From: an archaeon
Lineage (GTDB): Archaea > Iainarchaeota > Iainarchaeia > Iainarchaeales > GW2011-AR10
Assembly (NCBI GenBank): GCA_030651515.1
Contig: JAUSEO010000022.1
Coordinates: 1-33,088, forward strand
Reading direction: 5' to 3'
Length of the DNA: 33,088 nt
Shown one piece after another: positions 16,443 to 19,644 of the stretch (positions within the stretch are counted from its first letter, which is position 1; the number at the start of each line of letters is the position of its first letter). The notes under the pieces are model-generated. The model was not told the DNA's origin. It made no database searches and was given only the letters and a program-made list of their open reading frames with translations. Made by a program: the position numbers and the translations under genes.

Positions 16443-16880
16443 TTGGGAAAAACCATTTCAAGAAAAACTCCAAGGACCGGCAGGAAACCAGGAACTATGC
16501 TGCAAGGTGGACAAGCGGTAGTAGACGCGCATGGAATCGCAAGAACATTCCCGGCAAATCCAGACTTAAGAGCACTTCTCACCAAGGCAATAGAAAGAAA
16601 AACTCAACGCATGGAGCAGCAAAAGCCACCAACCAAAACACGCAGGGAACGCCAAAAGCCACCCGGCCACACGCCAAGGGTTTTACCCATCAAAACAGTA
16701 ATCAGGATACTGACTGAACTGGGTTTTGAAAGACGGCATTCAGAACACCATGAATTTGTACACCCCAGCCTTGGAGTAATAAACCTGGGTAGATACAGGC
16801 CAGAAATCGGGTTCACAGGCAACAGCCCAAGGTTAAAAAGTATAGTTAAGAAATACCTTGCCAGTGGCGGAAGACTCTGA
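16443..16880 (+). CDS. HicA-like (YcfA-fold) putative mRNA interferase with basic N-terminal extension
   Basis: C-terminal IRILTELGFERRHSEHHEFVHPSLGVINLGRYRPEI..RLKSIVKKYL resembles HicA; TTG start; no HicB alongside. Confidence 0.5.
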   Translation: MGKTISRKTPRTGRKPGTMLQGGQAVVDAHGIARTFPANPDLRALLTKAIERKTQRMEQQKPPTKTRRERQKPPGHTPRVLPIKTVIRILTELGFERRHSEHHEFVHPSLGVINLGRYRPEIGFTGNSPRLKSIVKKYLASGGRL

Positions 16881-16908: not shown

Positions 16909-17427
16909 TCATTCAACCATGATTGAAACTTTTTTTCCAACCAAAGGGACAAGGCGCTTGATTTCAACAGTGCAGTTTTCTTTCAATTTGAACTGGTCGG
17001 CAGAGTCAAGCGGAATCACGCCATCCACATCATAAACGTACATCCCTTTTTTCCCGTCAACCACGTCAATGTAAACACCCTTGTCGGTCTTGCGGAAAGA
17101 AATGCCCTCGATTTTTTTCAGGGCCTCAAGCATTGTCGAACCATTTTTCACCTTCACCGTCAGGGGCTTTTCAAAAAGCTCCCACACGCCCTTCAGTTTT
17201 TCAAGCGCATCCTTGCGGATTTTCAAAACGTGCGTGTTGCCAATCCGCTCACGCTCAATAAGCCCCACGCCCTCCAAAACACAGACGTGCTTGAGTGTAA
17301 CGGGGACAGAAATATTCAGCTCCCTTGCAAGCCCCGAAACGTGGAATTCTTTCTGCAGGAGAAACTTTAGGATGTTTCTCCTGTTCTGGTTGCCAAGAGC
17401 GCGAAACAAGTCCAAAAAAATCACCAT
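16909..17427 (-). CDS. ArsR-type winged-HTH regulator with DUF4430-like C-terminal domain
   Basis: FRALGNQNRRNILKFLLQKEFHVSGLARELNISVPVTLKHVCVLEGVGLIERERIGNTHVLKI; then KVKNGSTMLEALKKIEGISF..GVYIDVVDGKKGMYVYDVDGVIPLDSADQFKLKENCTVEI. Confidence 0.8.
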   Translation of the reverse strand: MVIFLDLFRALGNQNRRNILKFLLQKEFHVSGLARELNISVPVTLKHVCVLEGVGLIERERIGNTHVLKIRKDALEKLKGVWELFEKPLTVKVKNGSTMLEALKKIEGISFRKTDKGVYIDVVDGKKGMYVYDVDGVIPLDSADQFKLKENCTVEIKRLVPLVGKKVSIMVE

Positions 17428-17491
17428 GAAAACAAACATTAGCCGGGAAGATAAAATCCAAAAATCATTATCCAAAATGCTAACGATTGCT

Positions 17492-17514
17492 AATACTATT
17501 GAGAAGTATTTAAG
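17492..17514. promoter_or_regulatory. inverted repeat overlapping TATA-like box in divergent promoter
   Basis: AATACT-ATTGAGA-AGTATT (17492-17510) overlapping TATTTAAG (17507-17514); direct repeat TGCTAA at 17478 and 17488. Confidence 0.45.
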
Positions 17515-17559
17515 CGCGTAGCCATTAAATATCTTTTCTGTTTGCGGGGGTTGCATTCG

Positions 17560-19125
17560 ATGAAGAAAATTTTTATTGCAGTGTTTTTTGCCATTTTTTT
17601 GCACGCGGTTTTTGCAGAAGAAATGAACGTGCAGGTGTCATTCAATTTCCCGCTTGAAGAATCACCACAGGACGCGCTTGTAAGCCTAACCGTGCCAAAT
17701 GACAGCAACGCATTTACTGCAATCACCAAAGCAGCAGAACAAGCAGGGCTTGAGCTTGAAATAACTTTTTATGGAAACGACGCATTCATTGAATGCATTG
17801 AAGAGCTCTGCACAACGCAAAACGGCAATGACTGGATGTTTTGGCTCTTCTCCGTGAACAACAGGCCTTCAGGAATTGGGGTAAGCGATTACTATGCAGA
17901 GGAAGGCGATGTTTTATCGCTTGACTATTTTGAGTGGCAGGAAAAAGACGCACTTGAATGGCTCTTTGACCGCCAAGAGGAAGACGGAAAAATTGGTGCA
18001 AATTCGTTCCAGCACGCGTTTGCATTGGCAGCGCTAAGTCTTGCAAATGACCAAAATATCACTGGGTATGAACCGGAAAAAAACAGTGCAATCCAATATC
18101 TTTTGTCCACACAGCAGGACGACGCGGGATTTGGCGATGATTTGCGGAGCGCGGTTTCAGTAATGGCTCTGCTCTCAAATGGGGAAAAACTTTCAGACTT
18201 TGAAGTAAATGGCCAGGACACGCTTGAAACAATCACCTCACACCAGCAAACAGATGGTGGCTTTAGGAGCGGGACAAACCAGTCAGACGTGGACACAACT
18301 TCCTGGGCAATTATTGCATTTGCAGAAGCAGGACAAAACTTGCCGGAAAACAACAGCAAATCGCCGATTGATTTTCTGTTATCTGCGCAGCATGAAAACG
18401 GAAGCTTTGGATACATCATCGGGGATGAGGCTGAAAGCATTGATTTCACGGAAGAAGCACTCATTGCCTTATCCGCGTCAAAGCACCAAAAAGACGCACA
18501 GGTCCAGAAAAGCATTTCCTGGCTCTCCGAAAAACAAGACCAGGACGGGTGCATTGAAGATGGTTTCCGCACTGCACTTGGAACAATTGCATTTCTGGCG
18601 TGGGACGAAAATGCTTTGGCAGACCACGCAGTTGAATGCATTGAAAGCATTCTTGACCCCATGCAAAACGGGGACGGCAGCTTCGGCAGGGGCTCAAACC
18701 CTTCAAACGCCATGGACACCGGAATCGCAGTGATTGCGCTTAGCGGAAAAATTTTCCCGCTCAGCGTTTCAGATGACGGGGATGAAAATGGTTCAGGCGA
18801 CGGCAACTTTGGATTCCGCTCAATTGCCAAGTTCACTGCACGGATAAAAAACGAGTCAAACGTAAGCGCGCAAAACGTGAACATTGCCCTTGACGGCGTT
18901 CCACGAGAGTGGATAATCGACGAAGAAAGCACCCTGCACTTCGACGAAATAAAAACAGGCGAAACCGTTGAAGCAGAAATATTTGTGCGGATGCTTGAAG
19001 CAGGAGAGTACACGGTTTTGGCAATCGTTTCAACCGACACTGCCGCAAAAGACTTTGAGTCAAACAACGTCCACGCCAAAGTCGAAGAAGCATTGCTTAG
19101 CGTTGGCTTGTTTGTCGGCGGGTGA
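17560..19125 (+). CDS. secreted DUF4430-like + prenyltransferase/squalene-oxidase-type alpha-toroid protein with C-terminal CARDB-like domain
   Basis: Signal peptide MKKIFIAVFFAIFLHAVFA; GNDWMFWLFSVNNRPSGIGVSDYYAEEGDVLSLDYF; repeats QEEDGKIG, QQDDAGFG, QQTDGGFRSG, QHENGSFG, QDQDGCIED, QNGDGSFGRG. Confidence 0.85.
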   Translation: MKKIFIAVFFAIFLHAVFAEEMNVQVSFNFPLEESPQDALVSLTVPNDSNAFTAITKAAEQAGLELEITFYGNDAFIECIEELCTTQNGNDWMFWLFSVNNRPSGIGVSDYYAEEGDVLSLDYFEWQEKDALEWLFDRQEEDGKIGANSFQHAFALAALSLANDQNITGYEPEKNSAIQYLLSTQQDDAGFGDDLRSAVSVMALLSNGEKLSDFEVNGQDTLETITSHQQTDGGFRSGTNQSDVDTTSWAIIAFAEAGQNLPENNSKSPIDFLLSAQHENGSFGYIIGDEAESIDFTEEALIALSASKHQKDAQVQKSISWLSEKQDQDGCIEDGFRTALGTIAFLAWDENALADHAVECIESILDPMQNGDGSFGRGSNPSNAMDTGIAVIALSGKIFPLSVSDDGDENGSGDGNFGFRSIAKFTARIKNESNVSAQNVNIALDGVPREWIIDEESTLHFDEIKTGETVEAEIFVRMLEAGEYTVLAIVSTDTAAKDFESNNVHAKVEEALLSVGLFVGG

Positions 19126-19131
19126 AACAAA

Positions 19132-19644
19132 TTGGGCAAAAAAAGGCTTGCGTTTGTTGCATTAACAATTACCCTGATTTTTGGAATTGCGTGGTTTTTT
19201 GGTTTTAACAGCACAGGCTTTGTAGCTTTGCCTACTGCACAAAACACGCCAAATGAGCCAGCAGAGCAAAGCACGAGCACAGGACAAAAAGCAAACGCAG
19301 AAAACACAATCACGAGCGTGCGAAGCGTGTCAGCAGGTTTGTCGCTTGAAGAAGTCAGGCCAACAGAGCTTGACGCAACAATTTCTGAAGGAAAAACTGT
19401 TGCGTGCCCGCAAACAGGGGAAATCACGATTAAGGTAAAAAACACGGGGAAAAACACTGCAGAGAGGCTGAAAAGCTTTTTTCAGGAGTTTGCGGTTAAA
19501 GAGTGCGAAAATTGTAGCGCAAAACAGATTGCGCCAAGAGAAGAAATAAGCGTGAAAGTGACAGGCTGCGCGGAGCAAGATTCAACGCCGTTTGCGCAGT
19601 TCTGGGCGCTTAACGCCGAGAAAAAAACGGTTTTTTTAGATTAG
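19132..19644 (+). CDS. membrane-anchored extracytoplasmic protein, unknown function
   Basis: TTG start; N-terminal TM, Thr/Ala-rich linker, beta-rich ITIKVKNTGKNTAE domain; 6 nt downstream of 17560..19125. Confidence 0.65.
   Translation: MGKKRLAFVALTITLIFGIAWFFGFNSTGFVALPTAQNTPNEPAEQSTSTGQKANAENTITSVRSVSAGLSLEEVRPTELDATISEGKTVACPQTGEITIKVKNTGKNTAERLKSFFQEFAVKECENCSAKQIAPREEISVKVTGCAEQDSTPFAQFWALNAEKKTVFLD

Follow-up and report, generated by a model that had tools for sequence, protein, structure and literature searches.

A predicted corrinoid-scavenging module with its own ArsR-DUF4430 regulator in Diapherotrites archaea

An ArsR-type regulator and a secreted protein, each with a DUF4430-like domain, are divergently encoded on the DNA studied here. 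Which ligand would such a pair capture and sense, and how would the regulator act on its neighbour? The window, i.e. the whole stretch of 33,088 nucleotides analysed, is contig C21 of a 770-kb archaeal assembly which is 73% complete. The relatives of this genome in GTDB are mostly labelled Candidatus Diapherotrites (DPANN), GW2011_AR10 being among them. Conservation was followed in 75 genomes of the window's order, and a wider scan for the regulator family covered 84,980 genomes. Three loci carry the public titles Thaumarchaeota (L106, JAFCCH01), Falkowbacteria (L109, JAFCBY01) and Chloroflexota (L112, DAOWAC01); they match genomes of the window's order and the titles are probably wrong.

Domains and conservation of the divergent locus

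The open reading frame of the regulator spans positions 16909-17604 of the reverse strand. A start conserved among the orthologues lies near 17427, giving a protein of 172 aa (16909..17427). Residues 14-58 matched the HTH_5 (ArsR) family in Pfam (E=6.9e-7). Residues 96-156 matched DUF4430 (PF14478), a transcobalamin-like SLBB domain, with an E-value of 1.8e-4 and 22.3 bits, just below the cut-off of 23.8 bits. In a genome-wide profile search the domain scored above this cut-off (24.2 bits), and orthologues passed it clearly, with a maximum of 34.6 bits. Comparison of the regulator-family profile with DUF4430 lipoproteins by hhalign gave a probability of 97.8% (E=1e-12). The transcobalamin-type domain proposed for this region in the initial annotation is thus corroborated at the sequence level, and no unrelated fold was assigned to the C-terminus. 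The AlphaFold2 model (overall pLDDT 82.3) matches ArsR/SmtB structures through its HTH, over which the displayed Foldseek matches mainly lie; its C-terminal domain has a pLDDT of about 81-86. Judged by the sequences of HTH and C-terminal domain, the regulator is predicted to be a member of the ArsR-SLBB one-component type. The initial annotation knew of no such regulator; however, Burroughs et al. (2007; PMC1796856) had already reported fusions of an ArsR winged HTH with SLBB, which they connected with B12 and took to be probable one-component factors responding to it.

The DUF4430 domain of the regulator might serve for dimerisation or partner binding instead of ligand binding, the regulator then sensing something else. 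The alignment revealed that it lacks the YW motif typical of secreted DUF4430 domains, which would fit such a role, as would the modest quality of the whole model (pTM 0.51). Yet the domain has been kept in three archaeal groups with conserved Gly residues, and no conserved cysteines as used by metal-sensing ArsR proteins were seen in the regulator alignment. A non-sensing domain is considered quite unlikely.

The secreted protein is encoded on the forward strand (17560..19125), with 17560 as best start and a length of 521 aa. A signal peptide is followed by a DUF4430/transcobalamin beta domain, an alpha/alpha toroid and a C-terminal Ig domain of NEW3 type (Pfam); the limits of the three domains in the AlphaFold2 model (pLDDT 82.9) are about 21-124, 127-394 and 415-510. 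DUF4430 was detected by hmmscan at residues 69-123 (E=7.8e-5) with 23.5 bits against the cut-off of 23.8, and with 27.1 bits, above the cut-off, in the genome search. Profile-profile comparison with DUF4430 lipoproteins gave a probability of 98.6%. Foldseek matched the modelled N-terminal domain to the human transcobalamin beta domain with a TM of 0.81 (that of the target, over 108 columns) and an rmsd of 2.3-2.5 Å, the targets being the isolated beta domain in apo (5NO0) and cyanocobalamin-bound form (5NP4). The DUF4430 domain is predicted from the model to adopt the transcobalamin-type beta-grasp fold. In Pfam the toroid belongs to the Prenyltrans/squalene-cyclase group (E=1.8e-13), and six repeats of Q..DG..G type are visible in its sequence. 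Both parts of the earlier reading of this protein, a DUF4430-like segment and a toroid, are therefore confirmed by these matches.

Directly downstream, 19132..19644 (forward strand) codes for a small, predicted membrane-anchored protein, composed of a single hydrophobic helix at the N-terminus and an Ig-like domain. Four cysteines are invariant in its alignment (A9), namely C92, C125, C128 and C146, and may form two disulfides or a metal site.

A full-length regulator was found in 17 of the 75 genomes, with 43-87% identity, and the divergent secreted protein in 16 of these 17. These numbers argue against a chance arrangement, and the pairing is not unique to the window genome. The small gene adjoins the secreted gene in 13 of 16 loci, in agreement with its proposed role as partner; in two of the three others the contig ends there. 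The regulator of G066 is not adjacent to the gene of the secreted protein, and a cobalamin adenosyltransferase (PF01923) is encoded about 4 kb away. The partner has a toroid-first architecture in G025 and at L111, a related locus. Convergent to the regulator, five f6 genomes encode a DUF6580-like membrane protein of S-type together with a DUF4430 lipoprotein. An open reading frame at 16443-16880 of the window showed a weak partial match to HicA (E=0.015); no homologue clustered at the equivalent place in a same-genus genome.

The best matches of the toroid in Pfam and Foldseek were squalene-hopene cyclase, farnesyltransferase and TED domains. The secreted protein could on this basis be a surface adhesin or a terpenoid/thioester-type enzyme, with a regulation unrelated to cofactor uptake, but its secretion and its fusion to a transcobalamin-type beta domain speak against this. 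Moreover, at L111, L112 and L118 the same divergent position is occupied by a toroid-first protein, which continues with a weak DUF4430-like segment (hhalign E=2e-4, probability 45%). That of L118 also matches PF01122, the eukaryotic cobalamin-binding protein (3.5e-4). An adhesin or enzyme is regarded as highly improbable.

A predicted operator between the two genes

A search for exact dyads proved too strict to find an operator, and the motif was recovered by EM. With 15 orthologous intergenic regions of Diapherotrites, one 30-bp motif was obtained with a log-likelihood of 230, against at most 89 in shuffles; these regions are homologous, so that shared descent contributes to the value, the flanking proteins being only 43-60% identical in most pairs. 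In the window the predicted operator is located at 17465..17494 (forward strand), with a consensus near TATTAyCn6gGnTAAyrAynATTATC. In 14 orthologous regions it begins 8-44 bp from the start codon of the regulator, and in 11 of the 14 its end is exactly 14 bp from the TATA core of the secreted gene. The TATA-like element in the window is ATTTAA at 17508..17513 (forward strand), the TTTAA core of which begins 14 bp after the operator. A weaker second matrix match (11.7 bits; 17428..17457, reverse strand) abuts the start of the regulator and may have arisen by chance.

The matrix trained on Diapherotrites detected 20 sites above 16 bits in 17 loci outside this group, together with one additional held-out Diapherotrites copy (L122). 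Ten shuffles of the same 351 kb gave 0 or 1 site. The sites outside Diapherotrites mostly lie 12-16 bp from a TATA-like box, and they are found directly upstream of the DUF2162-CobN cluster, two BtuF-type genes and DUF4430 genes, among others. In some loci of Methanosarcinales and Thermoplasmata the match shares sequence with the initial codons of the regulator gene; those at L125, L128 (two), L129 and L149 are clear of them. The operator is thus predicted to be shared by loci of the same regulator family in Diapherotrites, Methanosarcinales and Thermoplasmata. A pattern search of the window genome (G000) revealed no convincing further copy, five places with up to three mismatches being no excess over the control. 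No full operator was found upstream of the remote operons of S-type and DUF4430-lipoprotein genes, nor near nrdJ, except for one 11.5-bit match inside the gene.

Corrinoid-related neighbours

In the wider scan, members of the regulator family with about 35-43% identity came from Methanosarcinales, ANME-2 and Thermoplasmata. One ArsR regulator of Methanosarcina mazei is MM2441 (PMC3510493). The regulator adjoins BtuF-BtuC-BtuD-CbiZ-type genes at L113 and L117, BtuF/CbiZ-type genes at L128, and CobN-like clusters (DUF2162-ExbB-DUF2149-CobN) at L121, L125, L129, L135 and L148, with parts of such a cluster at L120 and L149. DUF4430 genes are its neighbours at L118, L124, L132 and L134. Where DUF4430 lipoproteins are encoded near the regulator in these archaea, DUF6580 proteins accompany them. 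Roughly half of the loci in these groups have neighbours of the kinds listed, and for about one half of those in Methanosarcinales no clear corrinoid role of the neighbours is apparent; weak CbiZ-like matches to proteins of 380-411 aa in Methanosarcinales loci were left out of the count.

Within the order, 38 of the 75 genomes encode DUF4430 domains, and in most neighbourhoods read a stand-alone DUF4430 lipoprotein is encoded directly downstream of an S-type membrane protein. Genes for the latter are present in 37 of the 38 genomes with DUF4430 versus 9 of the 37 others (Fisher 1e-11, ignoring relatedness). The profile of the long S-type gave one significant PDB match, chain A of 6FNP (E=6e-5), and none to other S-components; the match persisted in alignment A5, which is A1 minus the short-type L090. 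6FNP is ECF-CbrT, which was shown to import cobalamin and cobinamide (PMC5997447). The likeness to a CbrT-type B12 S-component is predicted for the long type only, the profile of the short, DUF6580-like type having no PDB match. For the lipoprotein DUF4430 profile the best PDB match was transcobalamin-2, a weak one (E=0.0044).

nrdJ, of the adenosylcobalamin-dependent type, has an S-type gene as its neighbour in G036, G037 and G038, three relatives of the window's family, and in G070, with the order nrdJ, short ORF, S, DUF4430 lipoprotein, S in the latter. Regulator and nrdJ co-occur no more than expected by chance (6/17 vs 17/58 genomes). In the window genome, at 73% completeness, nrdJ was not found, and the S-type gene is near a contig edge. 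CobS was found in none of the 75 genomes. CbiQ (EcfT) was detected in 17 f6 genomes and one other, and nowhere else in the order, though S-type proteins are widespread. The c4 neighbour of 238 aa was EcfT-like by size only and turned out to be ribose-5-phosphate isomerase.

Two further observations concern these genomes. In the window's family (L078:8549-11046, L079:1507-4022, L080:6954-8650, L081:2301-3942) the DUF4430 lipoprotein is preceded by another lipoprotein, which ends in a cupredoxin-like domain and in G036 carries DUF4382 as well; two of these genomes additionally have a Ferric_reduct/MsrQ-like membrane protein there. These partners replace the S-type protein. Class II ribonucleotide reductase frames (TIGR02504) of about 1200-1900 aa, with a match split by gaps of ~1 kb or more, are present at L154 (G036:C1:88573-92049) and L155 (G038:C43:27040-31662), and in G039, G042, G043, G045, G046, G064, G073 and G074. 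Such gaps within an open frame look like inteins.

The same circuit might handle another ligand, and the DUF4430 domains would then capture and sense a peptide, a metal complex or a tetrapyrrole other than a corrinoid. The DUF4430 family is broad, several metal chelates are substrates of FecCD/Peripla_BP_2 transporters, and several neighbours in Methanosarcinales are not corrinoid genes; Burroughs et al. (2007) remarked that archaea with SLBB proteins commonly synthesise B12, and that the scavenged compound may be a different metabolite (PMC1796856). On the other hand, CbiZ, present in the L117 and L113 clusters, is an adenosylcobinamide amidohydrolase, the S-component profile is significant to CbrT and to no other S-component, and nrdJ is adjacent to S-type genes. 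A non-corrinoid ligand appears unlikely, and the ligand is best read as a corrinoid because of the operator and neighbourhood evidence.

Proposed working of the module and known systems

The locus is likely to be a scavenging module for corrinoids (vitamin-B12-type cofactors) with its own sensor. The circuit of ligand scavenging and sensing suggested in the initial annotation has gained support. The domains, the conserved arrangement, the operator, the target set across lineages and the link to the B12 S-component profile were obtained computationally. We infer ligand binding, hand-over and the sign of regulation as set out below.

Outside the cell, the corrinoid would be held by the secreted protein, with the transcobalamin-like beta domain on one side and the toroid on the other, and the small anchored Ig-like protein would keep the secreted protein at the cell surface. 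The corrinoid would pass to a DUF4430 lipoprotein, which has a CbrT-like S-component in the membrane as its partner, and then be imported; the genes of these two adjoin the regulator in some genomes and lie at other places in the remainder. Inside, the DUF4430 domain of the regulator would read the cytoplasmic corrinoid level, and an HTH dimer would bind the 30-bp operator, which overlaps the regulator's own expected promoter and sits 14 bp upstream of the TATA box of the secreted gene. With this geometry, uptake would be switched on under corrinoid scarcity. The constant distance between operator and TATA box suggests activation of the uptake promoter by the ligand-free regulator, combined with repression of its own gene, and the geometry would fit an autorepressed factor in contact with the basal machinery at the uptake promoter. 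A ligand-dependent repressor acting by occlusion is nearly as likely as this ligand-free activator.

With somewhat better than even confidence, we extend the corrinoid reading to a widespread archaeal family of sensors, composed of an ArsR HTH and a transcobalamin-type domain, which would govern B12 scavenging in DPANN, Methanosarcinales and Thermoplasmata by means of a single conserved operator; in DPANN, a B12 trap of two domains outside the cell, similar in kind to transcobalamin, would be linked to it. One fold, that of the animal B12 carrier, is apparently used twice, outside as a trap and inside as a sensor. No CobS was detected in these small DPANN archaea, and the module is proposed as their way of obtaining a B12-type cofactor. 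The domain-architecture prediction of 2007 becomes a testable set of regulator, operator and targets in three archaeal groups, including the genetically tractable Methanosarcina.

New here are the 30-bp predicted operator between the genes, 14 bp from the TATA box of the secreted gene in most genomes, its untrained recurrence at Methanosarcinales and Thermoplasmata loci of this regulator family, and the pairing of DUF4430 lipoproteins with CbrT-profile membrane proteins, sometimes beside nrdJ. No description of the operator or of the pairing of regulator and secreted protein was found in the literature searched, mostly papers outside subscription.

By described architecture, the window regulator resembles the known ArsR-SLBB regulators (Methanosarcina gi:72395507; PMC1796856) in its ArsR wHTH and transcobalamin-like SLBB; the conserved divergent partner, the operator and the cross-lineage target genes are added here. 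Fusions of SLBB with toroids in both orders and with Ig folds were linked to B12 scavenging by Burroughs et al. (2007), and the SLBB-first order is known in Bacillus (PMC1796856). Like transcobalamin and intrinsic factor, the window protein is secreted and combines a beta domain of the same fold with an alpha/alpha toroid. These carriers have the toroid first, whereas the archaeal protein, for which binding is only predicted, has the beta domain first (Pfam, AlphaFold2), as noted in the initial annotation, and a C-terminal Ig domain in addition. It is likened to transcobalamin in its working and is not a member of that family, its toroid not being N-terminal.

ECF-CbrT of Lactobacillus delbrueckii is matched by the S-type profile and has a comparable nrdJ neighbourhood (nrdJ-cbrS-cbrT-pduO; PMC5997447); in contrast to it, the archaeal S-like proteins pair with a DUF4430 lipoprotein, and EcfT was undetected outside f6 and one genome. 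If the extended reading is true, the ArsR-DUF4430 family is a candidate for the unidentified archaeal B12 regulator. The CBL-box of the archaeal cobalamin regulon reportedly goes back to Rodionov et al. in 2003. For the predicted cobalamin regulon of Pyrococcus furiosus, a paper of 2023 gives the regulator as 'CblrR (unknown)' (PMC10746257). Likened by description only, CblrR and the regulator presented here are both proposed archaeal DNA-binding B12 regulators.
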